The notes under the pieces: generated by a model
Seen by the model: the letters and a program-made list of their open reading frames with translations, nothing else
Database searches by the model: none
What the model was told of the DNA's origin: nothing
Source of the DNA: Polyangiaceae bacterium
GTDB lineage: Bacteria > Myxococcota_A > Polyangia > Polyangiales > Polyangiaceae
Direction of reading: 5' to 3'
Length of the DNA: 64,000 bases
Assembly (NCBI GenBank): GCA_015075635.1
Contig: JABTUA010000003.1
Span: forward strand, 1,674,001 to 1,738,000
Made by a program: the position numbers and the translations under genes
Shown here: in pieces, positions 1 through 20,643 of the stretch
How positions within the stretch are numbered: the stretch's first letter is position 1
How the letters are laid out: every line of letters begins with the position of its first letter

Positions 1-2139
1 GGAGTCGTCGTACACCTTGGCGCGGATCGCGGCGTGCGGGCAGACCAGCGCGCACTTGTTGCACTGGATGCACAAGCCCGCGTCCCACACCGGGATCTCG
101 TGTGCCAGATTCCGCTTCTCGAAGCGCGAGGTCCCCACGGGCCAGGTGCCGTCCACCGGGAAGGCGCTGACCGGGAGCAGGTCGCCCTTGCCGGCCAGGA
201 TCATCGCCGACACGCGCTGTACGAAGTCGGGAGCCTCCGCCGGCACCACCGCCGGGCGCGGTTTGCCGCTGGGCGCCGTCGCCGGCGGCGTGAAGGGGAC
301 CAGGCGATCGACCGCCGTGCGCGCCGCGAGCACGTTGCGGTGCACGAGCTCGTCGCCGCGGGCGCCGTAGCTCTTCTTGATCGAGGCCTCGATGCGGGTC
401 AGCGCCTCCTCGCGCGGCAACGCGCCGGAGAGCACGAAGAACGCCGCCTGCATCACCGTGTTGATGCGCCCGCCCAGGCCGTGCTCGCGGGCCAGACCGT
501 GGGCGTCCACCACGTAGCAGGTGAGCTTCTTGTCCTGGATGGTCGCCTGCACCTCCCGCGGCAGCGACTGCCACAGCGCCTCGCCGGTGGTCGGGGCGTT
601 GAGCAGGAAGATCGAGCCCCCTTTCGCCGTCGCCAGCACGTCGTAGCGCTCGAGCAGCTCGAATTGATGGCAGGCCACGAGCTCTGCCTCCTCGATCAGG
701 TACGGCGCGCGGATGGGGTTCGGGCCGAAGCGCAGGTGCGAGACGGTGACGGCGCCGGACTTCTTGGAGTCGTAGACGAAGTAGCCCTGCGCGTGCCCGT
801 CGGTCTCCTCGGCGATGATCTTGATCGAGCTCTTGTTGGCGCCGACGGTGCCGTCCGAACCGAGGCCCCAGAACACGGCGCTGTAGGTCTTGCTCTCCGG
901 GACGCGGAAGCTCGGGTCGACGTCCAACGAGAGCTTCGTCACGTCGTCCACGATGCCGACGCTGAAGCTCCGCTTCGGGCTCGTCGCGTCGAGCTCCGCG
1001 AACACGGCCTTCACCATCGCAGGGGTGAACTCCTTGCTCGACAGGCCGTAGCGGCCGCCGAGGATGCGCGGCACGGGTCGCTCGCCGTCCCGGCAGGCGG
1101 CGACGACGTCGAGGTAGAGCGGCTCGCCGGGCGCGCCGGGCTCCTTGGTCCGGTCGAGCACGGCGATGCTCTTCACGCTCTTGGGCAGCGCGACGAGGAA
1201 GTGCCGCAGCGAAAAGGGGCGGAATAGCCGCACTTTGAGCACGCCGACGCGCTCGCCGCGCGCGACCAGCGCGTCCACGGTGGCGTGCGCGGTCTCGGCG
1301 CCGGAGCCCATCATCACCACCACCCGCTCCGCCTCGGGGTGACCGTGGTAGTCGAAGAGCCGATAGCGGCGGCCGGTCAGCTCGGCGAAGCGGGCCATCG
1401 TCTCTTCCACCACGTCGGGACAAGCGTCGTAGAAGCCGTTGATGGCCTCTCGGGCCTGGAAGAACGTGTCGGGGTTCTGAGCCGTACCGCGCAGGACGGG
1501 CCTGTCCGGGGTCAGCGCGCGCGCGCGGTGCGCGCTGATCTGGTCCTCCGGCATCAGCTCCGCGAGCTCCGCGTCGTCCACCGGGACGATCTTCGCGATC
1601 TCGTGCGACACCCGGAAGCCGTCGAAGAAATGCAGGAACGGCAGGCGGCTTCGCAACGTGGCGACGTGGGCGATGCACGCGAGATCCTGCGCCTCCTGCA
1701 CGGAGCCCGAGCAGAGCATCGCGAACCCGGTGCTGCGGCAGGCCATGACGTCGGAGTGGTCGCCGAAGATGCTCAGGGCGTGGGTAGCGATGGTGCGGGC
1801 CGCTACGTGCAGCACGAACGGCGTGAGCTCGCCGGCGATCTTGAACATGTTGGGGATCATGAGCAGGAGCCCCTGGGACGACGTGAACGTGGTGGCCAGG
1901 CTTCCGGCCTGGAGCGCGCCGTGCACCGCGCCCGCTGCGCCGCCTTCGGACTGCATCTCCATCACGCTGGGGACTCGGCCCCACAGGTTCTTGTCACCGT
2001 GCGCCGCCCAGGCGTCGGCCAGCTCGCCCATGGCCGAGGCCGGGGTGATGGGATAGATGGCGATCACCTCGCTCGCGCGATAGGCCACGGATGCGACGGC
2101 TTCGTTGCCGTCCACGGCAATGTGCTTGGCTGAGCTCAT
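1..2139 (-). CDS. nifJ: Pyruvate:ferredoxin (flavodoxin) oxidoreductase, N-terminal 713 residues, cut by window start
   Basis: Oxidatively decarboxylates pyruvate to acetyl-CoA while reducing ferredoxin or flavodoxin in the cytoplasm. The frame is open from an ATG at 2139 to base 1. It begins MSSAKHIAVDGNEAVASVAY and continues with IAVYPITP-like residues (AIYPITPASAMGEL), typical of domain I of the single-chain enzyme. Near the left edge is a 4Fe-4S ferredoxin motif, CIQCNKCALVCPHAAIR. The family is about 1,190 residues, so the last third (rest of the clusters and the TPP domain) lies outside the window. It sits 36 bases after a Usp gene, downstream of the NtrC-like regulator. It is probably cotranscribed from the sigma-54-like promoter at 3973-3988. 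It fits the hydrogenase and acetate genes nearby as an anaerobic pyruvate route. Family assignment is very secure. Confidence 0.95.
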   Translation of the reverse strand, partial: MSSAKHIAVDGNEAVASVAYRASEVIAIYPITPASAMGELADAWAAHGDKNLWGRVPSVMEMQSEGGAAGAVHGALQAGSLATTFTSSQGLLLMIPNMFKIAGELTPFVLHVAARTIATHALSIFGDHSDVMACRSTGFAMLCSGSVQEAQDLACIAHVATLRSRLPFLHFFDGFRVSHEIAKIVPVDDAELAELMPEDQISAHRARALTPDRPVLRGTAQNPDTFFQAREAINGFYDACPDVVEETMARFAELTGRRYRLFDYHGHPEAERVVVMMGSGAETAHATVDALVARGERVGVLKVRLFRPFSLRHFLVALPKSVKSIAVLDRTKEPGAPGEPLYLDVVAACRDGERPVPRILGGRYGLSSKEFTPAMVKAVFAELDATSPKRSFSVGIVDDVTKLSLDVDPSFRVPESKTYSAVFWGLGSDGTVGANKSSIKIIAEETDGHAQGYFVYDSKKSGAVTVSHLRFGPNPIRAPYLIEEAELVACHQFELLERYDVLATAKGGSIFLLNAPTTGEALWQSLPREVQATIQDKKLTCYVVDAHGLAREHGLGGRINTVMQAAFFVLSGALPREEALTRIEASIKKSYGARGDELVHRNVLAARTAVDRLVPFTPPATAPSGKPRPAVVPAEAPDFVQRVSAMILAGKGDLLPVSAFPVDGTWPVGTSRFEKRNLAHEIPVWDAGLCIQCNKCALVCPHAAIRAKVYDDS

Positions 2140-2175: not shown

Positions 2176-2646
2176 CTACGCCCGCTTCGAGCGCGAGCGA
2201 AGCGCGGGTTCTGCGGGGGAACGCAGCGTGAGGACCGGACAGGGCGCCGAGTCCAGTACGCGCCGTGTCACGCTGCCCACGCGGCTCGGATTTCCGCCCG
2301 CCCCGGCGGCCCCCATCACGATCAGATCGAAGCGCTCGCTGGCGGCCAGGGTCACGATGACCTCGTGGGGCACGCCGACCTCCACGCGCGGCGCGGGGCC
2401 CGCATGCCCGCCGTCGTAGATGAAGTGGCGCAATCTTCGCGCGGCTTCGTGGCGAGCGAGGTCGCTCAGCGTCTTACCGCCGGGGTGCGACTTCGTCTTG
2501 AGCGGCATGCCGTGCGGGGGCTGCCAAACGTAGATCACCTCCAGCTGGGCGGAGGTCCCCTTGGCGATGGATCGGGCTCCCTCCAGCGCGGTTCGTGCGT
2601 CGTTCGAGAAGTCGGTGGCGACGAGGATCCTGTGGACTCGGGACAT
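2176..2646 (-). CDS. Universal stress protein, single UspA domain
   Basis: A 156-residue cytoplasmic UspA-fold protein. It starts MSRVHRILVATDFS, the usual first beta strand with the Asp that contacts nucleotide. It ends with an ATP-binding-type loop, VMGAAGAGG followed by RVGSVTRRVL. The loop is one residue shorter than the usual G-2X-G-9X-G(S/T), so ATP binding is plausible but not certain. It lies 9 bases after the NtrC-like regulator and 36 bases before nifJ. Usp genes next to pyruvate:ferredoxin oxidoreductase fit an energy-stress or low-oxygen operon. No specific partner can be named from the sequence. Confidence 0.9.
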   Translation of the reverse strand: MSRVHRILVATDFSNDARTALEGARSIAKGTSAQLEVIYVWQPPHGMPLKTKSHPGGKTLSDLARHEAARRLRHFIYDGGHAGPAPRVEVGVPHEVIVTLAASERFDLIVMGAAGAGGNPSRVGSVTRRVLDSAPCPVLTLRSPAEPALRSRSKRA

Positions 2647-2655
2647 CCGCCCCGC

Positions 2656-3945
2656 TCAGCTCTCTCCAGCTCGTTGGTCCGGCCCTTTGCGCGACGCGCC
2701 GTATTCGTGGAGCTTGTACTGGATCTTCCGCACGCTGATGCCGAGCACGCGGGCCGCGCGTGACGTGCTGCCGCCCTGCGCCGCAAGGGTCTGAAGGATC
2801 GCGTAACGCTCGATCTCTTCGAGCCGAGCACCGGGGATCGCAGGTCGCTGCCGCTCGCTGCGCGCGGGGATGCTCAGGTGCTCCGCGCGGATCACGCTGG
2901 AGTCGCTGCGGCTCTGGGCTTGGGTGAGGATCTGGCGCAGCTCGGGCAGGTTGTTCGGCCAGTCGTGGCGCCGGAGGCGATTCACCACCTCGGCGCTGAG
3001 CCCGGGGCAGCGCGGGCCCATCAGCGAGCGAGCCAGCGGGATCAGATCTTCCGGGCGCTCCCGCAGCGACGGCACGCGGAGCTCGACCACGGAAAGCAGA
3101 CGGCCCAGGTCTTCGCGGAACGCCGTGGCAGCCAGGTGACGCAGCTCGAAGACACCCGAAGAAACCACCCGAACCTGCGCCTCGCCGCTCGCGGGCGACG
3201 GTAGCGCGTCGAGCAAGGCCCCTTGGGTCTCGAACGGGAGCTCCGCGACGTCAGCGAGGTAGAGCGTGCCCCCGCGAGCCTCGGCGGCGGCGTTGCGCAC
3301 CTCATCGCGGGAGAGATCCAGCGCGCCGAGCGCGCGCTCGGCGACGTCCCGGCAGCGCAACACCACGAACGGGCCGTCCGAGCGCCGGGAGAGGGAGTGC
3401 AGCGCCCGAGCCAGCCGCGTTCGGCCCGTGCCGGGCTCGCCGCGCAGAAAGACGTTCGCGCGAGTGGGCGCCAAGCGGACCAGGCGCCGCACGACCTCGC
3501 GCATCTCGTGCGACTGGGCGACGATGCCCGGGACCTCCGGCTCCACCGGCTCCGCGATCGACTCGCCGTTCTTGCGACCGTGCTCCAGAGCCTGCGCGAT
3601 GACGGCCAGGAGTCGATCGGTGTCCAGCGGCTTCACCACGAAGTCGAACGCACCCTCGCGCATCGAGTCGAGGGCGATGTCCACTCCGCCGAACGCCGTC
3701 ATCACCACGACCGGCGCGGTGATGTCCGCGCGGCGCAGCCGGCGGATGAGCTCGAGGCCGTCCATGCTCGGCATGCGCAGATCCGTCAGGACCAGGTCCG
3801 GACGCACCTCTTCGGCTCGGGCCACGGCCTTGAAGCCGTCTCCTGCGGTGTCGGCGAGGTAGCCCTCGTCGCGCAACAGCTCGGCGAGGGCCATGCGAGC
3901 AGGTCCTTCGTCATCGACCACCAGGATTCGCGCCGGTCGTTCCAT
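2656..3945 (-). CDS. NtrC-family response regulator with degenerate AAA+ domain (no GAFTGA)
   Basis: A 429-residue regulator in three parts. The receiver (1-120) has D55 in LTDLRMP and K105 in VVKPL. A central AAA+ region spans about 140-360, and a Fis-type helix-turn-helix (EIERYAILQTL... SRAARVLGISVRKIQYKL) ends the protein. The central domain is damaged in all the places that matter. Walker A reads GEPGTGRT, with Arg for Lys. Walker B reads LYLAD instead of LFLDE. The segment that should carry ELFGHEKGAFTGA is missing. Established knowledge says GAFTGA is the sigma-54 contact, so this protein probably does not open sigma-54 complexes. HupR-like regulators of hydrogenase genes are a precedent. 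ATG 3945 is chosen over an upstream start because a GGAAAGGGACGGAA ribosome site precedes it. A sigma-54-like promoter lies at 3973-3988. Confidence 0.9.
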   Translation of the reverse strand: MERPARILVVDDEGPARMALAELLRDEGYLADTAGDGFKAVARAEEVRPDLVLTDLRMPSMDGLELIRRLRRADITAPVVVMTAFGGVDIALDSMREGAFDFVVKPLDTDRLLAVIAQALEHGRKNGESIAEPVEPEVPGIVAQSHEMREVVRRLVRLAPTRANVFLRGEPGTGRTRLARALHSLSRRSDGPFVVLRCRDVAERALGALDLSRDEVRNAAAEARGGTLYLADVAELPFETQGALLDALPSPASGEAQVRVVSSGVFELRHLAATAFREDLGRLLSVVELRVPSLRERPEDLIPLARSLMGPRCPGLSAEVVNRLRRHDWPNNLPELRQILTQAQSRSDSSVIRAEHLSIPARSERQRPAIPGARLEEIERYAILQTLAAQGGSTSRAARVLGISVRKIQYKLHEYGASRKGPDQRAGES

Positions 3946-4090: not shown

Positions 4091-5515
4091 TCAGGCCGGC
4101 GCGCCCAGGGCGGGGAAGCGGAGGGTGAAGCAGGTCCGGCCGGCTCGGGACTCGAACTGAATCGTCCCGCCGTGCTCGTGCACGATGCGGTGCACGATGG
4201 CCAGGCCGAGGCCGGTGCCGGCCTCCTTGGTCGTGTAAAAGGCGTCGAAGATCGGCGCGTCCTCCGCGATGCCTGGGCCGGTGTCCTCGACCAGCGCCTC
4301 GACGAACCCTTCGCTGTCGCCTCGCACGCCCACCGTCAGGACACCGCCCGTGGCCGCCATCGCCTCGACGGCGTTTCGCATCAGGTTGATCAGCACCTGC
4401 CGCAAGCGCTCCCGATCCCCCTCGATCAGGCCCCGGTCGCCGTCCAAGCGGGACTCGACGCGGACGCCCGCGGCCTGAACCTCCGGGCGGAGCTGCGCCA
4501 GGACGGACTGAGCGAGCTCGGCGAGCTCCATCGGGCTCAGGGTGAGGGGGTTGGGGCGCGCGAAGGCGAGGAAGTCCGAGACCAGGCGATCGAGCCTCCG
4601 GATCTCGTCGTGCACGATTTCGACCACGGGCAGCAGCTTCTCGGGGGTGTTCTGCCCGCGTTCCAGGCGCCGCCGGAGGACCTGGAGCTGGAGCGTGGCC
4701 GAGTTGAGGGGGTTGCGCACTTCGTGCGCCAGGCCGGCGGCCAGCGTGCCCACGGCCGCCAGGCGCTCCGCCACCGCGGTGCGTCGCTGCATGGCGCGCT
4801 CCGCGGTCACGTCGATGCCCACCGCGAACGTCATCGCGGCGCCGCGCGGCGCCGGGACCTGGGCCAGCTGCCAGCGGATCAGGCGGTGTCCCCCCGACTT
4901 CAGCGCGAGCCTGCGCTCGCCGCCGGAGCCCACCATCTCGCGTCCGGATCTGCCCAGCATCTCCTCCCGGTAGAAGCCCGTGACCTCCTCCAGGCGACGA
5001 TTCCAGAGCTGGATCTCGCCACCTGGACCCAGCGCCGTCACGAACGCCGGGACCGCCTCCACTACCTCGCGGTAGCGCTGCTCCGACTCCTCCAGCCGCG
5101 AGCGCAGCGTCTCCCGCTCGCGGACCAGCGCGTAGCGGGTCAGCGCGGTCTGAACCTTGGCCAAGAGCTCTGCGGGCTCGAACGGCTTCAAGAGGTAGGC
5201 CGACACGCCCTGGCCCACCGCGGCGGCGACGCTCTCGACCTTGGCGTCGCCGGTGATGATGATGGCCTCCGCGTTCGGGCAGTGTCGCCTGAGCTTCGAC
5301 ACCAGGTCGAGACCATCGGCATCCGGCAACCTGCGATCCACCAGCAGCAGCTCGAGCGCGTCGCCGAGCTCTCCAGCGAGCCCCTCGGCTTCGGCGCCGC
5401 TCCGCGCGATCCGGCACGTGACCTTGGCGTCGTCGTCGCCGCTCAGGATTTCGGCGACGTTCTCCGCCAGATCGGCGTTGTCATCGACGATCAGGACTGG
5501 GCTCTTCGTGCGCAT
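4091..5515 (-). CDS. Receiver-PAS-histidine kinase
   Basis: A 474-residue cytoplasmic hybrid with no membrane segment. The receiver comes first (1-125; D60 in LLVDRRLP, K110 in LLKPF). A PAS domain (about 142-240; VVEAVPAFVTALG, WNRRLEEVTG) follows, then a HisKA helix with H264 in GLAHEVRNPLNS. The HATPase domain has N box LMRNAVEAM, G1 DTGPGI and G2 GTGLGLAI. An N-terminal receiver implies that its kinase activity is set by a partner kinase, probably the globin-coupled kinase upstream. It starts 10 bases after the double receiver gene. The next gene is an NtrC-like regulator, the likely recipient of its phosphate. No ligand-binding residues in the PAS domain allow a ligand to be named. Confidence 0.92.
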   Translation of the reverse strand: MRTKSPVLIVDDNADLAENVAEILSGDDDAKVTCRIARSGAEAEGLAGELGDALELLLVDRRLPDADGLDLVSKLRRHCPNAEAIIITGDAKVESVAAAVGQGVSAYLLKPFEPAELLAKVQTALTRYALVRERETLRSRLEESEQRYREVVEAVPAFVTALGPGGEIQLWNRRLEEVTGFYREEMLGRSGREMVGSGGERRLALKSGGHRLIRWQLAQVPAPRGAAMTFAVGIDVTAERAMQRRTAVAERLAAVGTLAAGLAHEVRNPLNSATLQLQVLRRRLERGQNTPEKLLPVVEIVHDEIRRLDRLVSDFLAFARPNPLTLSPMELAELAQSVLAQLRPEVQAAGVRVESRLDGDRGLIEGDRERLRQVLINLMRNAVEAMAATGGVLTVGVRGDSEGFVEALVEDTGPGIAEDAPIFDAFYTTKEAGTGLGLAIVHRIVHEHGGTIQFESRAGRTCFTLRFPALGAPA

Positions 5516-5525
5516 CGAGATCGGC

Positions 5526-6269
5526 TCAGCGAAGCCCGGCAGCGACCTGCACGCGGTGGATCAGCTCGCCGAGGTCGCAGGGCTTCTCGATGCAGGGCTC
5601 GCGCGGGTCGAGTCCCGGCACGGCCTCGGCGAGCGCTCGCACCTGCTCCAGGTGGCCTTCGGCGAAGCCGGTGATGAACAGCACGCGGACTCCGGGGTCG
5701 CGGGCGGCCAGGCGCCGGGCCACCTCGAGCCCGCTGGCGTCGGGCAGGCAGATGTCGAGCACGGCCACGCGGGGCAAGCCGTGTTGAGCCAGGGCTTCCT
5801 CCGCGGAGTGTGCGACGATGGCGTCGAGGCCCAGCTCGTGGAGCGCGGTGGCGACGTTGTCCGCCAGCTCGCGCGAGTCCTCCACCACCAGCACCTGAAC
5901 GCGGGTGCGCGCGAAGGTGTCGAGCAGATCGCGGAGGCGGTCGATCCGGAGCGGCTTGGCCAGGACCTCGAGGGCGCCGGCCTCCTCGGCGGACAGCTCC
6001 GTCTGCGGGTCGACGTAGCCGCTCAGCAGCACGACCGGGGTGTGCACGCCCTGCTGGCGCATCTCGCGAATCAGCTCGACCCCCGCGCGGCCGGGCAGGC
6101 GCTGGTCGGTGATGATCCCCGCGTAGCTCCGCGCGGCCAGGCACTCGAGCGCGCGCTCGGCGCTCGCCGCAACGTCGGCCTCCGCACCGAGCTCCGCCAG
6201 CACCTCGACGAGGTTCTCGGCCATCTCGGGCTCGTCTTCGACGATGAGCAAGCGAGCGAGCGACGCCAC
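5526..6269 (-). CDS. Double receiver-domain protein
   Basis: About 247 residues forming two CheY-like receivers in tandem and nothing else. Receiver 1 has EDE at 11-13, D55 in IITDQRLP and K105 in LAKPL. Receiver 2 has VVEDS near 128-132, D172 in VLDICLP and a late Lys in EKPCDLGEL. Both domains keep the phosphate-accepting Asp, so both could be phosphorylated. GTG 6269 is chosen because it starts just before the first receiver strand and lies downstream of the kinase stop at 6316. An ATG far upstream would overlap the kinase in another frame. No strong ribosome site is visible, so the start is uncertain. It may act as a phosphate sink or relay between the globin-coupled kinase and the receiver-PAS kinase. 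Confidence 0.85.
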   Translation of the reverse strand: MASLARLLIVEDEPEMAENLVEVLAELGAEADVAASAERALECLAARSYAGIITDQRLPGRAGVELIREMRQQGVHTPVVLLSGYVDPQTELSAEEAGALEVLAKPLRIDRLRDLLDTFARTRVQVLVVEDSRELADNVATALHELGLDAIVAHSAEEALAQHGLPRVAVLDICLPDASGLEVARRLAARDPGVRVLFITGFAEGHLEQVRALAEAVPGLDPREPCIEKPCDLGELIHRVQVAAGLR

Positions 6270-6315
6270 GACCCGGGCTACGTAGTCGCGAGCGCCGGGT
6301 GGCGCAAGCAGGCCT

Positions 6316-7488
6316 TCAAGAGGACCCGGGTTCCTCGGCCGGGAGCGGAATGTCCGGGAACCACACCCGAAAGCAGGCTCCGCGGTCGGATGGCACCAGC
6401 TCGAGCTCCCCCCCGTGGGCGCGCACGATGCGGTTGCACAGGGCCAGGCCGAGGCCGGTGCCACGGGCCTTGGTGGTGAAGAGCGCGTCGAAGATTCGGT
6501 CGCGGATCTCGGGTGACACGCCGGGCCCGTAGTCCTGGACGAAGAGCTCCGTGCCCCCCTGACGTCTGCCCGCCCGGATGCTGACCGCGCCAGCGCCGTC
6601 CATCGCCTCGCTGGCGTTTCCGATCAGGTTGCCGAGCACGTGCCCCAAGTCGTCGGCGTCCACGTCGATCTGGAGCTCGGCGTCCACGTCGAGCTCGATC
6701 GTGGTGCCGGAAGCGTGCTCCTCCAGAGTCCTCTCGACCAGCGGGCGGAGCAGCTGCGTGCGCCGGCGTGGCGGGCGGTCGCGGGCCAAGTCCATCAGGT
6801 TCTTGATGATGGCGCTGCACTGCGTGACCTGCTTCTGCATCCGCTGCACGTGCTTCTCCAGCGGAGCGTCGTCGATGGCTAGTTTCGTCACGCGCTGGCG
6901 CGCCAAGAACAGAGACGATTCGATGATTCCGAGCGGGTTCCTGAGCTCGTGGCCCACGCTGGCGGCGAGCTGACCGATGGTCGCGAGGCGCTCGTTCGAG
7001 CGGATACTGCTCGACAGGTAGTCGTGGTACGAGTCCAGCATCACGGCGAGCTCGAGGTCGAGGAGCTGGTGCACGGCCAGCTCGGCAGCGGCGCGGCGCT
7101 CCGTATCGGCGGCGTAGACACGCTGGACGGAGCGAACGAGCCCGGTGCGGACGCGATTCATGGCCGTCAGCATGAAGCGCTGCTGGAGCCCCACCCGCAC
7201 GTGAACCAGGCCGATGCGCCGGCGGGCCGCCATCCACTCGAGGTCGTGCGGGCCGCGCAGCGAGCTCGCCAGCCACTCCTCCAGGGTGCACTTGAGGCGA
7301 TCGATCTGCTCGCGTCCGCCCGTGATGACGCGGTAGGCGTCCGGGTCGCGCACGATGGCCGCGTAGAAATCGTCGATCAGCGGCGGGATGTCCGCGGCCA
7401 CGAGTGGTGCCAGCTCGCCGAGGAGCGCGCTCGCGCGGTCGTCGAAGCCGACGTAGCGCTTGACCCCGTCGAACTGCGCCGGGTCCAT
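6316..7488 (-). CDS. Globin-coupled histidine kinase (probable heme gas sensor)
   Basis: A 390-residue soluble kinase. Residues 1-155 resemble the protoglobin domain of globin-coupled sensors: a helical stretch (LIDDFYAAIVRDPDAYRVI) is followed by ARRRIGLVHVRVGLQQRFM. The pattern IGxxHxRxGL carries the expected proximal heme ligand, H96. The kinase core has H180 in ASVGHELRNPLG, N box NLIGNASEAM, DYGPGV and GTGLGLAL. ATG 7488 has an AAGGTCGAGG-type ribosome site. It is first in the signalling operon. Known globin-coupled sensors bind O2, CO or NO, so an oxygen-sensing role for the hydrogenase/pyruvate gene set is the natural inference. Heme binding itself is not shown by sequence alone. Confidence 0.88.
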   Translation of the reverse strand: MDPAQFDGVKRYVGFDDRASALLGELAPLVAADIPPLIDDFYAAIVRDPDAYRVITGGREQIDRLKCTLEEWLASSLRGPHDLEWMAARRRIGLVHVRVGLQQRFMLTAMNRVRTGLVRSVQRVYAADTERRAAAELAVHQLLDLELAVMLDSYHDYLSSSIRSNERLATIGQLAASVGHELRNPLGIIESSLFLARQRVTKLAIDDAPLEKHVQRMQKQVTQCSAIIKNLMDLARDRPPRRRTQLLRPLVERTLEEHASGTTIELDVDAELQIDVDADDLGHVLGNLIGNASEAMDGAGAVSIRAGRRQGGTELFVQDYGPGVSPEIRDRIFDALFTTKARGTGLGLALCNRIVRAHGGELELVPSDRGACFRVWFPDIPLPAEEPGSS

Positions 7489-7687: not shown

Positions 7688-8152
7688 CTAGCGTTCGCCT
7701 TCGGCGGTCCGCACCGTGAGGACCGGGCGTGTGGAGCGGCGCACGACCTTCTCCGCGACGCTGCCGAGGAGCAGGTGAGCGAAGCCGCTGCGACCGTGGG
7801 TGCCCATGGCCACCAGGTCGTAGCCCTCGCGCTCGGCCAAGGTCACGATGGTGTGAGCGGGGTCACCCTGCTCCACCCGGGTGTTGGCGATCTCGATGCC
7901 GTCCTCGCGAGCCTGGGCGGCGAACTCGCGCATCGCAGCCTGGGCCTGGTCACTGGCGAGTTGCGCCAGCGTCTGCGTCGTGCCCGCGGCGCCGACCATG
8001 GCCTCCGGCGCGACGAACGCCGGCGCCTCCCAGACGTACAAGAGGTCGATGCTGGCGTTGAAGCTCTTCGCCAACATGGCCGCGTGCTCCAGCGCGGCCC
8101 GCGAGCACGCGGAGTAATCGACTGGAACCAGGATTCGACGCAGGTAGTTCAT
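7688..8152 (-). CDS. Universal stress protein
   Basis: A 154-residue UspA-domain protein starting MNYLRRILVPVDYSACS. It ends with a fully canonical ATP-binding loop, MGTHGRSGFAHLLLGSVAEKVVRR, so it probably binds ATP. Its start overlaps the stop of the Usp gene before it by four bases (ATGA), showing translational coupling. The two are a co-expressed pair of different Usp proteins. The gap after its stop (7489-7687) separates it from the globin-coupled kinase, which probably has its own promoter. Confidence 0.92.
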   Translation of the reverse strand: MNYLRRILVPVDYSACSRAALEHAAMLAKSFNASIDLLYVWEAPAFVAPEAMVGAAGTTQTLAQLASDQAQAAMREFAAQAREDGIEIANTRVEQGDPAHTIVTLAEREGYDLVAMGTHGRSGFAHLLLGSVAEKVVRRSTRPVLTVRTAEGER

Positions 8153-8655
8153 CTCGACGCTCCTTTGGACCCGACCGGACTCTCTTCGGCGCCCGACGCG
8201 TGCTCTGCCATCGGTACCACCAGCACGGGGCAGGGGGCGAGCCTGACCACGCGTTCCGCCACGCTGCCCAGCACGACGCGGCGCGCGCCCGTTCGGCCGT
8301 GCGTGCCCATCACCACCAGATCGGCGTGCTTCTGTCTGGCCCGCTCCACGATGGTGGTCGCGGCGTCGCCCACCTCGAGCGACACTTCGACCAGAGCGCG
8401 GTCCTCGGCCGACAGGCTGGCCAAGAAGCGTTCCACTTCCGTCTTGGCCTGCTCCTCCGCGAGCTCCCAGAGCGGACGCGGGCCGACTGCCGCCCAAACC
8501 AGCACGCTGGGCTGGACGTAGGCGGGGACGTGGTAGACGTGGAGCAGCTCGACCGTCGAGCCGAAGCGCCGCCCGAGGGAGAGCGCCGTCACGAGCGCCA
8601 GCCGAGAGCACTCGGAGGCGTCGACGGGGCAGAGGATTCGGCGGTATTCGGTCAC
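8149..8655 (-). CDS. Universal stress protein
   Basis: A 168-residue UspA-domain protein, GTG start at 8655, beginning (V)TEYRRILCPVDASECS. The canonical nucleotide loop MGTHGRTGARRVVLGSVAERVVR is intact. A C-terminal tail of about 20 residues rich in Ala/Ser/Glu extends past the fold. It is the first gene of a two-Usp operon and overlaps the next gene by ATGA. The sigma-54-like promoter at 8672-8687 lies only about 16 bases upstream of the start codon, so the transcript would have an extremely short leader. Confidence 0.92.
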   Translation of the reverse strand: MTEYRRILCPVDASECSRLALVTALSLGRRFGSTVELLHVYHVPAYVQPSVLVWAAVGPRPLWELAEEQAKTEVERFLASLSAEDRALVEVSLEVGDAATTIVERARQKHADLVVMGTHGRTGARRVVLGSVAERVVRLAPCPVLVVPMAEHASGAEESPVGSKGASR

Positions 8656-8690: not shown

Positions 8691-9257
8691 TCAATGCCGG
8701 GGGGTTGGCACCGTGTACCCCTCGCGCAACGCCAACCAGCGCAGCACGTCGAGCGCGCTCAGGATCCCCACGACCTTGCCGTTCGGGGCTACGACCGGCA
8801 CGCGGTGTACTCCCTCCAGGGCCATCAACGCCGAGGCGCGCGCTATCGAGGCCGACTCCGGCAACGTGAACGCGAGCGGGGTCATCACGTCCCGCACCGT
8901 GGCGTCGCGCAGCTCCTGGACGTGCATGCCGCGGTCGAGCTGGGCGCGAATGCCTCCGCTCTGGAGCTCCGGCTTTCCGACCTCGCCGGTCTCACCGCGG
9001 TCGGCGTAGTCCCGGAGGACGTCCGTCTTGGACACGATCCCGAGGGTGCGACCGCTGGAGTCGACCACCGGCGCGCCACTGATGCCGCGCTCCAGGAACA
9101 GATCGGTCAAGGCTTCGATGCCCAGGTCCGGCGGCACGCACACGACGTGCTTGGTCATCACCTCGCCGACCGGAGTGGTCTCTGCTGGGCCCGCAGGTTC
9201 ACCGCCCGAGCGATGTGGCCCGATGGCGGCGTGAGTGGATTCTCTGTTGGAGCTCAT
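8691..9257 (-). CDS. CBS-domain pair protein
   Basis: A 188-residue protein with two CBS motifs. The first runs PVGEVMTKHVVCVPPDLGIEAL to GISGAPVVDSSGRTLGIVSKTDVL. The second runs ATVRDVMTPLAFTLPESASIARA to GVHRVPVVAPNGKVVGILSALDVL. A Bateman module like this usually binds an adenosine nucleotide. There is no fused enzyme. A 30-residue N-terminal tail is low in complexity. It is transcribed from the sigma-54-like promoter at 9352-9367 and has a GAGAGGTGAG ribosome site. A second CBS gene is transcribed divergently. Stand-alone CBS proteins beside Usp genes recall hypoxia-induced proteins of actinobacteria, which is an analogy only. Confidence 0.9.
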   Translation of the reverse strand: MSSNRESTHAAIGPHRSGGEPAGPAETTPVGEVMTKHVVCVPPDLGIEALTDLFLERGISGAPVVDSSGRTLGIVSKTDVLRDYADRGETGEVGKPELQSGGIRAQLDRGMHVQELRDATVRDVMTPLAFTLPESASIARASALMALEGVHRVPVVAPNGKVVGILSALDVLRWLALREGYTVPTPRH

Positions 9258-9351
9258 GGTGACTCACCTCTCGCGCACTGCCTGCGCCGGTTGGGGTTCT
9301 TGCGCACGCATTGCGCAGGTCGGGTCCGACGTCGTCGGCGAACAACGGGTT

Positions 9352-9367
9352 TGCAAGTGTCGAACCA
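9352..9367 (-). promoter_or_regulatory. Sigma-54-type promoter for the leftward CBS gene
   Basis: Minus-strand TGGTTCGACACTTGCA has GG-N10-GC, a perfect TTGCA, and 10 of 12 informative matches. It lies about 95 bases before the ATG at 9257 and one base from the divergent promoter at 9369-9384. Confidence 0.68.
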
Positions 9368-9368
9368 G

Positions 9369-9384
9369 GGGCATGCACGTTGCA
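9369..9384 (+). promoter_or_regulatory. Sigma-54-type promoter for the rightward CBS gene
   Basis: GGGCATGCACGTTGCA has GG-N10-GC, a perfect TTGCA, and 10 of 12 informative matches. It lies 45 bases before the ATG at 9430 and back-to-back with the leftward promoter. Confidence 0.66.
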
Positions 9385-9429
9385 TCGCGTCAGGGCAGGA
9401 AGATAGCGCGAAAGCGAGGAGCTCGAGCA

Positions 9430-9846
9430 ATGGTTGTCGAAGACGTCATGACCGAGGCCCCGATCACCGTGTCGTCCAGCACTTCCATTCGGAAGGTCAT
9501 CATGACGCTCTTCGAGAGTGACTTCCGGCACCTACCCATCGTCGATGGCGGTCAGCTCGTCGGCATCGTCAGCGATCGCGACCTGCGCGCGTTCATGACA
9601 CCGAGCATGATCGAGCTCGAGAAGCCCGAGGAGGTCCAGCGCCGTCTGGCCCAGCCCGTGTCGACCGTGATGAACGCCGACGTCGTCAGCGTGACTCCCG
9701 AGACCGACCTCGCCGACGTGATTGAGATGATGCTCGATCAGAAGGTCGGCGCCATTCCGGTGGTTCGTCCCGACACCCAGGAGCTGGTCGGCATCGTCAG
9801 CTACGTGGACGTGCTGCGAGCCGCACAAGAGCTCTTCGAGGATTGA
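9430..9846 (+). CDS. CBS-domain pair protein
   Basis: A 138-residue protein that is almost entirely a CBS pair: VEDVMTEAPITVSSSTSIRKV to FRHLPIVDGGQLVGIVSDRDL, then PVSTVMNADVVSVTPETDLADV to VGAIPVVRPDTQELVGIVSYVDVL. ATG 9430 is chosen because GAGGAG lies eight bases upstream and the CBS fold starts directly after it. An earlier in-frame start would run through the sigma-54-like promoter. It is monocistronic and converges with the epimerase gene. It probably senses an adenylate ligand, but its effector target cannot be seen. Confidence 0.92.
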   Translation: MVVEDVMTEAPITVSSSTSIRKVIMTLFESDFRHLPIVDGGQLVGIVSDRDLRAFMTPSMIELEKPEEVQRRLAQPVSTVMNADVVSVTPETDLADVIEMMLDQKVGAIPVVRPDTQELVGIVSYVDVLRAAQELFED

Positions 9847-13065: not shown

Positions 13066-15308
13066 TCAGCTCTTCCCCATGACGCTCGCGGCGACGAAGG
13101 CTTGTCCCACCGAGACGCCGCCGTCGTTCACCGGGACGAGCTCGGGCGAGAGCACGCGAAACCCACGGCCCTCGAGCAGCGCGCGGGCGCCGTCGGCGAG
13201 CAGCCGATTCTGGAAGCAGCCGCCGGCGAGCACCACGTCCTTCAGGGCCACGCGCTCCGCGACGAGCGCGGTGACCCCGACCAGCGTCGCGTGGAAGCGC
13301 GCCGCTGCCAGGTGTGGATCGCCTTCGCCGAGCACGGCGCGCACTGCGGGTTCCCAGTCGATGACTGCCGGTGACGCGTCGCCGAGCGGGATTGGATAAG
13401 GCGCCTCGGGCGCAGCGCGCTCCGCTGCCAGCTCGAGCTCGAGCGCGGCCTGCCCCTCGAAGCTCGAGCGCTCCGAGAGCCCGAGCAGGGCGGAGACCGC
13501 GTCGAACAGCCGGCCCAGGCTGCTGGTAGGGCGGGAGTGGTCGGCGCTCTCCAGCATGCCGAGCAGCACCTTGGCGTGGGCCGCCGGGTACCAGCGGTTC
13601 GCGTAGCGCTCCGCCAGCGCGGGATCGATCGCGTGCAGCACCCCGAGCGCCGCGCGCCGCGGGTCGCGCGCTGCCGCGTCGCCACCCGGCAGGCGGAACG
13701 GCCGGAGGTGAGCCACGCGCTCGGCGTGGGCGCCGTCGGCCACCAGCGCCTCGCCACCCCAGATGGTGCCGTCGGTGCCGAGGCCGCTGCCGTCCCAGGC
13801 GAAGCCGAGCACTCGGTGCCCGACGTCGTGCTCGGCCAGGGCCGAGGCGACGTGCGCGTGATGGTGTTGCACCCGCAAGAGCGGCACGCCGAGCTCCTGC
13901 GCCAGGCGCGCGGCCAGCTCGCTCGAGGCATAGTCGGGGTGAAGATCGCAGCACACCACGTCGGGCTTGGCGTCGAAGAAGCGACACAGGTCGCCGACGG
14001 TGCGCTCGAGCCCAGCGATGGCCGCGCTGCTCTCCAGATCGCCCAGGTGGTGGCTGGGGACGAGCTGGCCGCGGTGGAGCAGCGTGACCGTGCTCTTCAG
14101 GTTCGCGCCCAGCGCCAGCACGGTGAGCGCCGTGTCCAGGCTGGCCACCGGGCGTGGCGCGAAGCCTCGCGCGCGCCGCACGAGGCACAGGCCGCTCGGA
14201 CCGACTCGCGCCACGGAGTCGTCGACGGGCCGCACGATCTCGCGGTTGTGCACCAGGAGCTCGTCCGCGATTTCCCCGAGCTCCTTCACCGCGTCCGCGA
14301 CGGCAGTGCACATCGGCTCCTCGGCGCGGTTCCCGCTGGTGCAGACCAGCGGGCGGCCCACGGCCTTGGCCAGGATGCGGTGGAGCGGCGTGTACGGCAG
14401 CATCGCGCCGAGCCTGGAGTTGCCCGGGGCCACCGAGCCGCCGACGTTCGACTCTGCGCGCCGCTGCACGAGCAATATTGGGGCCTCAGCGCTGGTGAGC
14501 CAGCGCTCCTCCCGATCCGAGAGCTCCGCGTGCGAGCGGAGGCTCGCGAGCGACTCGAACAGCACTGCCAAGGGCTTCTCCTCGCGATGCTTGCGCGAGC
14601 GCAGGCGGCGCACCGCCTCGTCGTCCGTGGCGTCGGTCAGGAGCTGAAAGCCGCCGAGCCCGCGCAGCGCGAGGATGCCCCCTTGCCGGAGCAACGCGGC
14701 GGCACGCTGCAGCGCCTCTCTTCTCGTGTCGCGAGGCGCTTGCCGCCAGAGTCCAGGAGCTCGAGGACAGGGCCGCAGGCGGGGCAAGCCATCGCCTCGG
14801 CGTGGAAGCGGCGGTCTCCCTCCGTGCCATACTCGGCCGAGCAGTCCGCGCACAGCTCGAAGCGCTTCATGCTGGTGCGGCCGCGATCGTAGGGCAGCGC
14901 CTCGACGATGCTGAAGCGCGGGCCGCAGCGCGTGCAGTTGGTGAAAGGGTAGCGGAAGCGGCGGGCCTTCGCGTCCTCGATCTCGGCCGCGCACTCCGCG
15001 CAGGTGGCGAGGTCGGCGGGGAGCGCAGCCTCCACGGCGGCGCTGGCGTCGCTCTGGGCGATGACGAAGTCAGACTCCGCGCGCTCCGCCAGCGTCTCCT
15101 GCTCCAGCTTCTCGACCCGGATCGGGGGCGGCAGCGCGCGCAGGGCATCGGCCAACTCGAGCGCGCGCTCGCCTTGCACCTCGATGCGCACCGAGCCGCG
15201 CTCGTTCCTCACGAAGCCGCTCAGGCCGAGCGCGTGGGCGAGCCGCGCCACGCTCGGCCGAAAGCCGACGCCCTGCACGACTCCCCGCACCGTGAGCCCA
15301 ATGCGCAC
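13066..15308 (-). pseudogene. hypF: Carbamoyltransferase HypF, apparent single-base frameshift
   Basis: HypF makes the thiocarboxamide on HypE that becomes the cyanide ligands of [NiFe] hydrogenase. The N-terminal part (15308 to about 14720) has the acylphosphatase motif VRGVVQGVGFRPSVARL and zinc-finger cysteines (CATCAAEIEDAK, NCTRCGPRF, CADCSAEY, CPACGPVL). The rest (about 14720 to 13066) is in the next frame: a YrdC-like domain (GLGGF, RSRKHREEKPLAVLF) and a Kae1-like domain (VQHHHAHVASALAEH, GGCFQN). The switch needs a minus-one step near 14717-14728, in a purine-rich run. Joined, the two parts give about 747 residues, the normal length. It is either a one-base deletion or a sequence error. 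Last gene of the hydrogenase operon. Confidence 0.88.
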
Positions 15309-15327
15309 GAGGCCTACTTTCGCACAA

Positions 15328-15669
15328 TTACTCGACGTCCAGGCTGTCGATTCGAAGGCCCGGTGTGCCCATGACGTCGGCGTCCGTGCTGCCGCAGGCC
15401 GGGCAGAGCGTGAGGTGGTGCTCCGGACGGTAGCTGGTCGCGCAGGCCCGGCAGCGAGCCTCCAAGTGTGTCAACGCCAGCTCGAGCGCCGCGTCTTCGG
15501 CCGCGGTACCGCGGGCGTGGGCCGCGAAGTGGAAGCCGATGGCGTCCGCGTGGAGGTGCTCGGTCTCGGCCAGCTCGCCGACGACCCGGCGCACGCGCCT
15601 GGCGCCTCGCTCCTGGGCGAGCTGGAGCACGGCTTCGAGCAGGCCGCGGGCCAGGGCGGATTCGTGCAT
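15328..15669 (-). CDS. hypA: Hydrogenase nickel-insertion protein HypA
   Basis: A 113-residue cytoplasmic metallochaperone that helps insert nickel into the hydrogenase large subunit. It starts MHESALARGLLEAV; the N-terminal Met-His-Glu is the nickel site of the family. The zinc site is two CxxC pairs, CRACATSYRPEHHLTLCPACGS. It lies 7 bases after the maturation protease gene and 19 before hypF. HypB, C, D and E are not in the window and must be elsewhere if the enzyme is matured. Confidence 0.95.
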   Translation of the reverse strand: MHESALARGLLEAVLQLAQERGARRVRRVVGELAETEHLHADAIGFHFAAHARGTAAEDAALELALTHLEARCRACATSYRPEHHLTLCPACGSTDADVMGTPGLRIDSLDVE

Positions 15670-15676
15670 GTCTTCC

Positions 15677-16126
15677 TCACTTGGCGAGCAGCTCGCGGAC
15701 CTTCGCCGCCGCGACGGGCACCGCCGCGGCGACCGGTCCAGACAGCTCCGTGCCATGGGCGGTCGGCGGCTCGATGGCTACGGCCAAGAGCAGAACCTCG
15801 GGCAGCGCCCCGCCCGCGAGCACCCGGGCCAGCTCCAAGGCCTGCCTGACGCTGATGCCGTGGGTCGAGACCGGTGAGAGCGGCGCCTCCGCGAGCTCGG
15901 AGAGCCCGAGCGCGAGCACGCCCCCTGCTGGCCCCGCACCGACCGCCGCATCCACAAGCACCACGCGCTCGGCGCCCTGGAGCAGCTCCACCAGCCGGGC
16001 GGGATCCGCTACCTGGTGGAGCTCCGCGCCGTTTGGAGGGTTCGCCGCCAGCGCGTCGAGCACGCAGAGGCCCACGCCGTCGTCGCCAGCTGCGCGCTGG
16101 CCGAGCCCGATCACCCGGACCGCCAC
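15677..16126 (-). CDS. Hydrogenase maturation protease
   Basis: A 149-residue protease of the HyaD/HycI/HoxW family. It removes the C-terminal peptide of the large subunit after nickel insertion. It starts MAVRVIGLGQRAAGDDGVGL, with the GDDG-type nickel-coordinating acidic residue, then VVLVDAAVGAG and a STHGISVRQAL segment typical of the group-3 proteases. It begins on the base next to the large subunit stop, consistent with acting on that product. The large subunit has the expected cleavable tail after DPCISCSTH. Confidence 0.93.
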   Translation of the reverse strand: MAVRVIGLGQRAAGDDGVGLCVLDALAANPPNGAELHQVADPARLVELLQGAERVVLVDAAVGAGPAGGVLALGLSELAEAPLSPVSTHGISVRQALELARVLAGGALPEVLLLAVAIEPPTAHGTELSGPVAAAVPVAAAKVRELLAK

Positions 16127-17425
16127 TCAGTCCTCCTGCTCCAGACGGAGCCGGAGGAAGTGGGTGGAGCACGAGATGCAGGGGTCGTAGTTGCGCACGG
16201 TCTGCTCGGCGAGCCGGGTCGCCTCCTCGTGGGGCAGCTCCGCGAGCCGAGTCGCGATCGAGAACAGATCGTCCTCGATGGACTTCTGGTTCTGGGACGT
16301 AGGTGGGGTGATCTTGGCCTCCTCGATCAGGCCTTCGGCGTCGACGCGATAGCGATGGTAGAGCGTCCCTCGCGGCGCCTCGGTGGCGGCCCGGCCCACT
16401 CCGGCGCGGCTGGGCACCGGGACGCGCGAGCGCGCGGGCGGTTGGTAGGCCTCGATCAGCGCGATGGCCTCGTCCAGCGCTTGCAGCGTCTCGACGCCGC
16501 GCACCAGCAGCGTCTTGAACGGATTGAGCAGCGGTGGCCGGAGGCCCAACGACTCCGCGACTTCCCGGGCGAAGGGCCGTAGCTCGGTGAAGCACAGGTT
16601 GAAGCGTGCCAGCGGGCCAACCACGTACGGGCCGTGTCCGACGCGCACCGAGTGCAAGGCCGTCGAGTGGGCGACGTGCTGCTCCTCGAAGTGCGCCTCG
16701 TAGTCGTGGACGTCGATGTCCAGCCCCCGGCTCGAGACGATGCGGCCCTCGCAGAACGGGTACTCGTCGGGGTGCTTCAGGCTGACCAACTCGACCGGGC
16801 GCTCGAAGTCCGGGAACGGCAGCCCGGCGAGGGTGGGCATCGCCGCCGCCAGCGCCTGCTTCGACCAACTGAGCTCGGGATGGAGCGCGCGGAGCTCGGC
16901 CACGGTCGGTGCGCGGTAGAAGCCGCCCACGCAGACGTTGATGGGGTGGATCTCGCGCCCACCCAGCACGTTCACGATGGCGTTGCCGGCCTTCTTCATG
17001 CGCAGCGACGCCTTGACCAGCTCGCCGTGGTCCTTGGCCATGTGGATGGCGTCGGGGTAGCCGAGGAAGTCCGGGGCGTGCAGCATGAACATGTGGAGGA
17101 CGTGGCTCTCGATCCACTCCCCGCAGTAGAGCAGGCGCCGGAGCGCGCGGAGCTCTGGCCCGAGCTCCACACCGGCCGCATCCTCGATGGCGTGGCAGGC
17201 GCTCATCTGGTAGGCGACGGGGCAAATGCCGCAGATGCGCGCGGTGACGTCCGGCGCCTCGAGCTGAGAACGGCCGCGCAGAAACCCTTCGAAGAAGCGC
17301 GGCGGCTCGAAGATGCGGAGCTCGACACTCTTGGGCTCCTTGCCCTTGAAGCGGATGGTCAGGGCGCCTTCGCCCTCGACGCGGGTCAAGAAGTCGACCT
17401 TGATGGTGCGGGTGTTCGTGCTCAC
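16127..17425 (-). CDS. hyhL: [NiFe] hydrogenase large (alpha) subunit, group 3b type
   Basis: A 432-residue catalytic subunit that binds the NiFe(CN)2CO centre. The N-terminal CxxC is in ARICGICPV (C65, C68). The C-terminal CxxC is in DPCISCSTH (C416, C419), followed by a ten-residue tail, [10 protein letters not shown], for removal by the protease encoded next. Start is a GTG at 17425 that overlaps the small subunit stop. Operon content (FAD/NAD-binding gamma subunit and Fe-S beta subunit) places it with soluble NAD(P)-linked group 3b enzymes, also called sulfhydrogenases. These can oxidise or evolve H2 and may reduce sulfur. Related classes 3a/3c/3d are less likely because no F420 or HoxFU-type genes are present. 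Confidence 0.94.
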
Positions 17426-18219
17426 GGCCCGCGCTCCTTCTCGCCTGCGAGCTGAAGGTGCTCTGCCGCGAACTTCGGTGCGGCGGCGTTGAAAGTCGCG
17501 TACAGCCGCGCGACCTCCGGGCCCGTGAGGCCGAGCTTCGCGAGCGCCGGTCTCAGCCCTTCGGGGTTGGCGCTCTCCGCCGGGCCGAAGCAGGCGAAGC
17601 AGCCCCGCGTGTAGCTCGGGCAGAGGGCGTTGCAGCCGCTGTGGGTCACCGGCCCGAGACAGGGTGTGCCCTGCGCCACCATGACGCACACGGTGCCGCG
17701 TCGCTTGCAGTCGAGGCACACCGAGTGGTTGCCGATGCGGGGCGGACGGGCGTTGAGGAAGGCGTTCAGCACCTCGAGCAGCTGCCGCTTGTCGATCGGG
17801 CAGCCCCTGAGCTCGAAGTCCACCGGTACGTGCTCCGCCACGGCCGTCGACCTGGCCAGCGTCCGGATGTACTCGGGCCTCGCGTACACGACCCGGAGGT
17901 AGTCGTTCACGTCGGCGTAGTTCCTCAGCGCCTGGATGCCGCCGGCGGTCGCGCAGGCGCCGATGGTCACGAGCTTCTTGCTGAGTTTGCGGATTTCGCG
18001 CAGACGCTCCGCGTCGTGTTCGGTGGTGACGGAGCCCTCGACCAGCGTCAGGTCGTAGGGGCCCTTCACGATGCGGCTGGATGCCTCCAGGAAGTAGGCG
18101 ATCTCCACGGCGCCGGCCACCGCCAGGAGCTCGTCTTCGCAGTCCAGCAAGCTGAGCTGGCAGCCGTCGCAGGAGGCCAGCTTGAACACCGCGAGCTTGG
18201 GCTTCTTGGGCGCTTTCAC
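17422..18219 (-). CDS. hyhS: [NiFe] hydrogenase small (delta) subunit
   Basis: A 265-residue Fe-S subunit. The proximal cluster residues are in [21 protein letters not shown] and GCPID. A second cysteine-rich block ([40 protein letters not shown]) provides the other clusters. It lacks a twin-arginine signal, so the enzyme is cytoplasmic. GTG 18219 is chosen with GGAGCT upstream, inside the end of the gamma-subunit gene. It overlaps the large subunit start by four bases. Confidence 0.94.
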
Positions 18220-18221
18220 GG

Positions 18222-19046
18222 CTAGAGCTCCTTGACGCTCATGAGCGGCGCCATCTTCGTCAGCGGGTAGACCGGGCCGTCCTTGCAGATGAAGGTCGGG
18301 CCCAGCTGGCAGTGCCCGCAGGAGCCGACCGCGCACTTCATGTTCCGCTCCATGGACAGGTAGACGCGGCTCGCCGGCACGCCCAGGCCCTCGAGCTCGC
18401 GCGACGCGAAGCGCATCATCACCTCCGGTCCGCACAGCATGGCCACGGTGCTCTCGGGCGCGAGGTCGAAGCGCCGAAGCAGCTTGGTGACCACGCCGGT
18501 ATGCCCGCGCCAGTCGGGGTCGCCACGGTCCACGGTGACCTCCAGATCCACGTCGATGCGGCCCCGCCACTTCTCGAGCTCCTTCACGAACAGGAGCTCG
18601 GCGGGCGTGCGCGCGCCGTAGGCGATGTGGACCTTGCCGAACACCTTGCGACGCGAGAGCACGCTGTAGATGGTGGGTCGCAGCGGGGCCAGGCCGATGC
18701 CGCCGGCCACGAGCATCACGTCCTTGCCCTGCGCCTCGTCCACCGGCCAGGGCGTGCCGAACGGACCGCGCACCCCGACGCTGTCTCCTTTGCGGAGCTT
18801 CTCCAGCGCCCGCGTGGTGGGACCCACGGCGCGGATGGTGTGGGTCAAGACGGCAGGCCTCAGCGGGTCACCGCTGATCGAGATGGGCACCTCGCCGAGA
18901 CCGAAGGCGTAGAGCATGTTGAACTGTCCCGGAGCGAAGCGAAAGCCGCCGCGCGGGCGGGCGTCCAGATCGAAGCTGAACGTGTCGTCCGTCTCGCGCC
19001 GGACGCGCAGCACCTCCATCGGCTCGGGGAACAGCGGATCGCTCAT
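18222..19046 (-). CDS. hyhG: Hydrogenase gamma subunit, FAD/NAD(P)-binding with 2Fe-2S site
   Basis: A 274-residue flavoprotein of the ferredoxin-NADP reductase fold. It has an FAD region ([21 protein letters not shown]), a dinucleotide-binding stretch ([15 protein letters not shown]) and a terminal 2Fe-2S site, [14 protein letters not shown] followed by FIC. It is the electron gateway between NAD(P)H and the hydrogenase clusters. Its start overlaps the cNMP-domain gene by four bases and its stop lies two bases before the small subunit start. Confidence 0.93.
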
Positions 19047-19513
19047 CGAAGCTCCGCTTTGTAGACGTCCAGCTGCTGCAAACGCGCCTGCATCAGGCGC
19101 TGGGAGGCTGCCGCCAAGAGGCGCAGCGTGAAGGCGTAGCCGAAGCCGTGGTCGGCCTGCACCTTGCCGCGGACGCAGTTGGCATCGAGGGCGAACGCCA
19201 ACGTCGGCTCGAGAGCGCGCGCGTCCAGGTGCCAGCGGAACGGCGGCAAGAGCACGGACCAGCCCAGAATGTCCCCTGGGTTCAGCGTGTCCACCTTGAC
19301 CGAGCCCTTGCCGGGGACGTAGCTCTCGACCGCGATGCGCCCGCTGCGGATCAAGAACAGGGCGTCCGCGAGGGAGCCCTCGCGGACCACGTAGTCTCCG
19401 GCCTCGAAGCGCGCGTTCCGGGCGCAGCCCGCCAGGAACTCGACCTGGGCCTGGGTGAGCTCCTTGCAGAAGGGCTGATCAGCGAGCGAACGTGCGAGCG
19501 ATTCGACTTCCAT
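19043..19513 (-). CDS. Stand-alone cyclic-nucleotide-binding-domain protein in the hydrogenase operon
   Basis: A 156-residue protein consisting of one Crp-like cNMP-binding domain ([68 protein letters not shown]) followed by helices. It has no DNA-binding helix-turn-helix, so it is not a Crp regulator. The phosphate-binding cassette reads [17 protein letters not shown]; it keeps the Gly but not a clear RTA, so the ligand is uncertain. It sits between the beta and gamma subunit genes, overlapping the latter by ATGA. That tight placement suggests a regulatory or structural part of the hydrogenase complex. Confidence 0.88.
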
Positions 19514-19518
19514 GGGGC

Positions 19519-20643
19519 TCACTCCGATTTGCGGGCGCCTTTGCCCGTGCTGCCGACGGCAGCGGCTTCTTCGGTGATGTCGATGCCTACCGGGCACCAG
19601 GTGATGCAGCGGCCGCAGCCGACGCAGCCGGACGAGCCGAACTGTTCGTGCCAGGTCGAGAGCTTGTGGGTGATCCACTGCCGGTAGCGCGCGGCCGTGC
19701 TCGGCCGCACCGCGCCGCCGTGGATGTAGGAGAAGTCGCTGGTGAAGCACGAGTCCCAGCGCCGGCGGCGCTCGGCACTGCTCCCGTCGAGCTCGGTGAA
19801 GTCCTCGATGGTGGTGCAGAAGCAGGTCGGACACACCAACGTGCAGTTGGCACAGGCGAGGCAGCGCTCGGCGACCTGGGCGAAGCGCGGGTGGTCGGGG
19901 TTGTCGGCCAGGCGCTCGCGCAGGCCCACCGTCTCCAGGCGGCGGGTGATGCGCTCCGCCGAGCTCACCGGCACCTTCGCGGCGCGCACCCGGTCGAGCA
20001 CGCTCGCCGGCCGGAGCCCGAGCTCGCGCACGAGCGTCACGCCGATGGCGCTACCCGTCTCGACGATGAAGCGGTGATCGCCCTCCAGGAGCTCGGTCAG
20101 CGCCAGATCCCACGGGCCTGCTGCGCGCGGCCCCGTGCCCATGGACGTGCAGAAGCAGCTCGCCGAAGGCGCGCCACAGTGCACGGCGACCACGATCACG
20201 TCGGAGCGCCGGGCGGCGTAGCGCTCGTCGTGGTACCGGTCGTGCTTCAGCACCCGATCCTGGATCGCGAGCGCGGCCAGGTCACAGCCGCGCGCGCCGA
20301 GCAGCGCCAGCTTCTTCTTCTCGACCGGCTCGGGGGTGAAGCGCAGCGACTTGCCCTCGCGGTGGACTCGATACAGGCGCTCCTCCGGCACGTGGAACTG
20401 CTGCTTGAAGGAGCCCGCGCCCACCGCGAAGCCGAACACGGCCTGGTCCTGTCTCTGCTCGACGCGGTAGCGCCCGGGCTCCTGGGCGTCGGTGAGGCCG
20501 ATGGGCAGCTCGGCGTCGCTCTGGATGGAGTCGTAGACGATGGCGCCTTCCCGGAGCGTGGGCCCGATCACGTCGTAGCCCTGGGCGCCGAGCGCGCTCA
20601 GCAGCTCACCGAGCCGTTGCCGGGGCAGGAGCCAGGCGTCCAT
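19519..20643 (-). CDS. hyhB: Hydrogenase beta subunit, 4Fe-4S protein
   Basis: A 374-residue iron-sulfur subunit of group 3b hydrogenases (anaerobic sulfite reductase A-like). The N-terminal half contains conserved residues of the family ([38 protein letters not shown]). Two 4Fe-4S motifs follow: [16 protein letters not shown] and [16 protein letters not shown]. It passes electrons between the flavin subunit and the catalytic dimer. Its start overlaps the acyl carrier protein stop by a single base, and five bases separate it from the cNMP-domain gene. Confidence 0.92.

Follow-up and report, generated by a model that had tools for sequence, protein, structure and literature searches.

The DNA analysed here (the window) is a 64,000-nucleotide stretch of a Polyangiaceae genome. 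Three consecutive genes on its minus strand, nmpU, nmpT and nmpS, together occupy positions 4091-7488 and have a fourth regulatory gene, nmpR*, beside them. The features of the locus are listed below by position.

1..2139, minus strand: a gene which we take from its sequence to be pyruvate:ferredoxin oxidoreductase (PFOR)-like; an open frame cut by the window edge that closes the same-strand run
2176..2646, minus strand: universal stress protein (USP) gene (Pfam)
2656..3945, minus strand: nmpR*, NtrC-like regulator lacking the GAFTGA loop and the Walker B acid, with receiver (D55) and HTH kept
4091..5515, minus strand: nmpS, receiver-PAS-histidine kinase (D60, H264; Pfam, residues)
5526..6269, minus strand: nmpT, double receiver (D55, D172; two Response_reg domains, residues), a likely phosphate sink (role from PMC6211767)
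6316..7488, minus strand: nmpU, protoglobin-coupled histidine kinase (Pfam, 5ohe match, residues H96, Y42 and H180)
7688..8152, minus strand: USP gene (Pfam)
8149..8655, minus strand: USP gene (Pfam)
8691..9257, minus strand: double CBS-domain protein gene (Pfam), which opens the minus-strand run containing nmpUTSR*
9273..9316, no strand assigned: paired NmpR operator, GCGCA-N5-TGCGC boxes at 9273-9287 and 9302-9316 with a gap of 14 bp
9352..9367, minus strand: candidate sigma54 promoter TGGTTCGACACTTGCA, two mismatches to consensus, facing the minus-strand gene run
9369..9384, plus strand: candidate sigma54 promoter GGGCATGCACGTTGCA, two mismatches to consensus, preceding the plus-strand CBS gene
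9421..9846, plus strand: divergent double CBS-domain protein gene (Pfam), a likely NmpR target given the operator position

According to Pfam, the nmpU product carries a protoglobin domain (PF11563, aa 4-157, E = 5e-30) followed by HisKA and HATPase_c, and the AfGcHK globin structure 5ohe matched it over aa 5-156 (1e-25). The key residues H96, Y42 and the phospho-His H180 are present, and the heme-ligand position H96 is His in all 58 related globins aligned. This protoglobin is the sole one in the 9.47 Mb of genome searched; a search of the genome contigs with NmpU alone matched nothing but an unrelated kinase. Both NmpT receivers are intact (D55 with K105, D172 with K229). The NmpS domain order is Response_reg, PAS (a moderate match, E = 2e-5), HisKA and HATPase_c, with D60, K110 and H264 in place, and the genome has no other kinase of the NmpS type at E ≤ 1e-40. 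The first helix is alike in the NmpT and NmpS receivers and differs in NmpR and NmpR*, the same pattern as in Myxococcus xanthus.

Domain searches and residues thus bear out the sequence-only reading of positions 4091-7488 as three consecutive genes with a protoglobin (H96), three receivers with intact Asp and two kinases. It had also proposed a check of gene-neighbourhood conservation, and the protoglobin kinase, double receiver and receiver-kinase are indeed encoded together in relatives. Three related clusters (L036, L070 and L032) have no neighbouring nmpR, the intact NmpR being on other contigs or distant, and many relatives (L033, L034, L041, L074 and others) encode just one receiver where the window has the double receiver NmpT. 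Orthologues of the PFOR-like gene occur at the equivalent place in L036, L143 and L144. A hydrogenase island (13066-20643), with genes for HypF, HypA and a maturation protease and for a [NiFe] hydrogenase and its Fe-S, NAD-binding and cNMP-binding partners, adjoins the relay in the window and lies beside it in L036 too.

The NmpRSTU oxygen relay is known from M. xanthus (PMC6211767, PMC11841059). There, oxygen-bound NmpU passes phosphate to two receivers, the first of NmpT and that of NmpS, and this phosphorylation is proposed to hold NmpS off; under oxygen limitation, NmpS phosphorylates NmpR. The sites bound by NmpR are pairs of GCGCA-N5-TGCGC boxes at sigma54 promoters, including that of a hypoxia-induced CBS gene (PMC6211767, PMC11841059). 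The double receiver NmpT is thought to act as a phosphate sink (PMC6211767). AfGcHK is the Anaeromyxobacter NmpU, and M. xanthus NmpU is its homologue (PMC6211767, PMC11841059).

The window locus resembles the M. xanthus system (mxan_4240, 4244-4246) in its four protein types (protoglobin kinase, double receiver, receiver-kinase and NtrC-like regulator), in the order nmpU-nmpT-nmpS, in the CBS and USP genes that are its neighbours or targets, and in the paired operator, whose boxes are 14-15 bp apart (14 bp here, at the CBS gene). It differs in that its local NmpR copy is degenerate, the intact one being encoded on another contig, in the PAS match of NmpS, and in the setting of the cluster among USP, CBS, PFOR-like and [NiFe] hydrogenase genes. 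As in AfGcHK of Anaeromyxobacter sp. Fw109-5, a globin with proximal His and distal Tyr is fused to a kinase with a response regulator adjacent; AfGcHK is known biochemically, whereas the window protein is known from its sequence and the likeness rests on the globin alignment. Orthology of the window genes was assigned on architecture, order, the AfGcHK-type globin, H96 and the operator, and membership of the locus in the NmpRSTU system is well supported on these sequence features. The circuit had been proposed to be an unusual oxygen-response circuit; it is not a new one, since architecture, order and operator are those of the NmpRSTU system already described (PMC6211767, PMC11841059).

Both operator boxes at 9273-9316 are perfect and lie between the divergent CBS genes. 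The 9.47-Mb genome contains a single exact pair (gap 10-19) and the reversed control gave none, and the pair is retained at the same place in the sister species with at most one mismatch. Measurements in M. xanthus gave the same consensus and 14-bp spacing. Of the two candidate sigma54 sites, the minus-strand one (9352..9367) is invariant across three species of the genus, and the position of the plus-strand one (9369..9384) is largely conserved within the genus. A looser core pair was found at seven places in the genome (control, 0), three of them immediately upstream of CBS or USP genes, classes that also occur in the M. xanthus regulon. One looser pair, before a USP gene, has a -24/-12 match with no mismatches to the pattern used. 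Two likely NmpR targets elsewhere in the window genome both have paired boxes: a USP gene (L153, 1443-1542), which has a sigma54 site too, and a CBS gene (L151, 1501-1590).

The 1.18 Mb of related loci contained 25 near-perfect pairs, versus 0-2 in first-order Markov shuffles. Single boxes with at most one mismatch numbered 21 against 19.5 expected; as single boxes are uninformative at 70% GC, pairs alone were used. A three-mismatch variant of the pair gave fewer matches than its control and was dropped. No NmpR boxes lie directly upstream of nmpU, in contrast to M. xanthus. The divergent CBS promoters of two further genomes (G022 and G284) have no matching operator pair; consequently, the operator position is not family-wide.

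The unusual part of the locus is the degenerate NtrC-like gene nmpR*. Pfam and alignment identified a Response_reg domain, a sigma54-type AAA+ domain with damaged motifs and a Fis-type HTH at 3945-2656, in agreement with the earlier description of a degenerate NtrC-like gene next to the trio. In the window protein, the Walker A Lys is replaced by Arg and the Walker B Asp by Ala. The GAFTGA loop is deleted in NmpR* of all three genus members; the Walker A position is Arg in two of the three species and the Walker B position is Ala or Ser in all three. Among 108 family genomes, NmpR* is confined to three species of the genus, a fourth match being an intact NmpR. In another family member, G028, NmpR (L038, 6270-7607) has an altered GAFTGA motif (DEREAAAGV) but retains its Walker motifs, and may be a second case in which contact with sigma54 was lost.

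Contig C1 of the genome encodes an intact NmpR as well: it carries GAYTGA, its Walker motifs are undamaged, and it is 46% identical to NmpR*. The features of a sigma54-activating NmpR are thus absent from the window copy and present in the contig C1 copy, which, judged by its sequence, has everything needed to act on sigma54. Sigma54 itself is present in all eight genomes tested. The two other genus species likewise carry both NmpR* (69% identical) and intact NmpR (93%), and the recognition segment GISVRKIQYKLHEYG is common to the two proteins in all three genomes. Given that NmpS is the sole kinase of its type, NmpR and NmpR* probably share it.

Oxygen control and the direction of phosphotransfer are taken here from the homologues and joined to the parts, residues, operator and NmpR* selection read from the DNA. 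Oxygen on the NmpU heme would promote autophosphorylation, with phosphate passing to NmpT as a sink and to the NmpS receiver, and the phosphorylated receiver would keep NmpS off. A drop in oxygen would leave NmpS active to phosphorylate NmpR-type regulators, which would then bind the paired boxes and drive the sigma54 promoters of CBS and USP genes. The proposed flow of phosphate from the heme kinase to the double receiver and the receiver-kinase therefore stands in so far as it was shown biochemically in the M. xanthus homologues (PMC6211767), where phosphorylation is proposed to switch the second kinase off. Phosphate itself moving linearly from NmpU through NmpT and NmpS to NmpR, which gene order alone would permit, is highly improbable: no HPt domain was found by Pfam in any of the four proteins, M. 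xanthus NmpS phosphorylates NmpR only and not its own receiver or NmpT (PMC6211767), and its D59A variant has raised autokinase activity, indicating that the NmpU input inhibits NmpS (PMC6211767).

In this genus, two NmpR proteins accompany one NmpS: the intact NmpR, and NmpR*, which has neither the loop that contacts sigma54 nor normal ATPase motifs. Judging from its anatomy, NmpR* may occupy the same operators, take NmpS phosphate, or both, damping or reshaping the low-oxygen response. That nmpR* is merely a decaying duplicate without function is hardly credible. NmpR* has lost several catalytic motifs, and its AAA+ domain changes more quickly than that of the intact copy (overall dN/dS of intact NmpR 0.03-0.07, below that of the NmpR* AAA+ domain), but three species retain NmpR* as a full-length open reading frame (68-69% identity), the operator is kept, and dN/dS is well below 1 in every domain (HTH 0.08-0.15, receiver 0.14-0.19, AAA+ 0.25-0.33). 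These values indicate selection on NmpR*, more relaxed in the AAA+ domain, and a pseudogene was rejected on dN/dS and conservation.

A more serious contender, though still rather doubtful, is that NmpR*, once phosphorylated by NmpS, acts as a sigma70-type regulator that activates or represses housekeeping promoters independently of the sigma54 mechanism, so that the relay would have two outputs relying on different sigma factors. Rhodobacter capsulatus NtrC, Caulobacter NtrC and VpsR are GAFTGA-less precedents acting at sigma70 promoters (PMC10274813); like them, NmpR* lacks the loop and keeps its receiver and DNA-binding domains, which are well conserved among the three genus species (receiver 80-89% identity, HTH 88-98%), and its AAA+ core is predicted still to fold (mean pLDDT 79). 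Unlike them, it has lost the Walker B acid as well and coexists with an intact paralogue sharing its DNA-recognition segment. This paralogue fits competition at least as well, and the operator adjoins sigma54-type sites. We consider it highly probable, for the explanation as a whole, that the locus is the Myxococcota NmpRSTU oxygen relay, with NmpR* likeliest modulating intact NmpR at shared operators. As to its precise role, competition with or damping of NmpR is plausible from the sequence but falls a little short of probable; a pure phosphate sink or another role takes the small remaining share. A wider proposal is tentative: NmpR* would be a conserved, built-in antagonist of intact NmpR, phospho-switchable but sigma54-blind, that uses the same operator and kinase and sets the hypoxia threshold, and the four-part relay would in parallel have been rewired repeatedly into a single globin-kinase, with linker-register shifts that would invert the oxygen sign.

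Sequence comparison indicates that direct fusion of the globin to an NmpS-type kinase has collapsed the relay on about five occasions within the phylum, one of them in a sister species. In that species (G001), the globin leads straight into the NmpS PAS-kinase (75% identical), with no kinase of the NmpU type, no NmpT and no receiver on NmpS. In G002, the first eight residues, resembling the NmpU start, are all that remain ahead of the PAS-kinase. Fused forms fall inside the NmpS clade at about five places in the kinase tree (six changes were forced, one of them from a misclassified row), and their globins lie near local NmpU globins in a globin tree with several weak branches. By locus, in relatives of the window genome, straight fusions of globin to NmpS-type PAS-kinase were seen at L143 (8277-9746) and L145 (11242-12738), and at L144 (10736-11743) the globin is deleted altogether. 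One locus classed as fused by score (L106) was rejected because its kinase is NmpU-type.

In 38 of 39 NmpU proteins, a linker of 26 residues separates the last globin helix from the phospho-His; in three fused lineages this linker has 21, 27 or 32 residues, none of these equal to 26 modulo 7. Such lengths would fit a changed helical register and an inverted sign, with little statistical weight; the chance that three independent shifts all avoid 0 modulo 7 is ~63%.

The circuit itself is the known NmpRSTU; its variant output and repeated collapse are new within the open-access literature searched. These observations place an oxygen relay that was solved recently in one more lineage. NmpR* represents a natural experiment in which an output protein was selectively kept after loss of its motor, with the switch and DNA-binding parts retained. 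The repeated collapse of the relay into one fused sensor kinase is likewise a natural experiment on signalling evolution: if the low-oxygen response is unchanged, control by the globin must be inverted in the fused forms.
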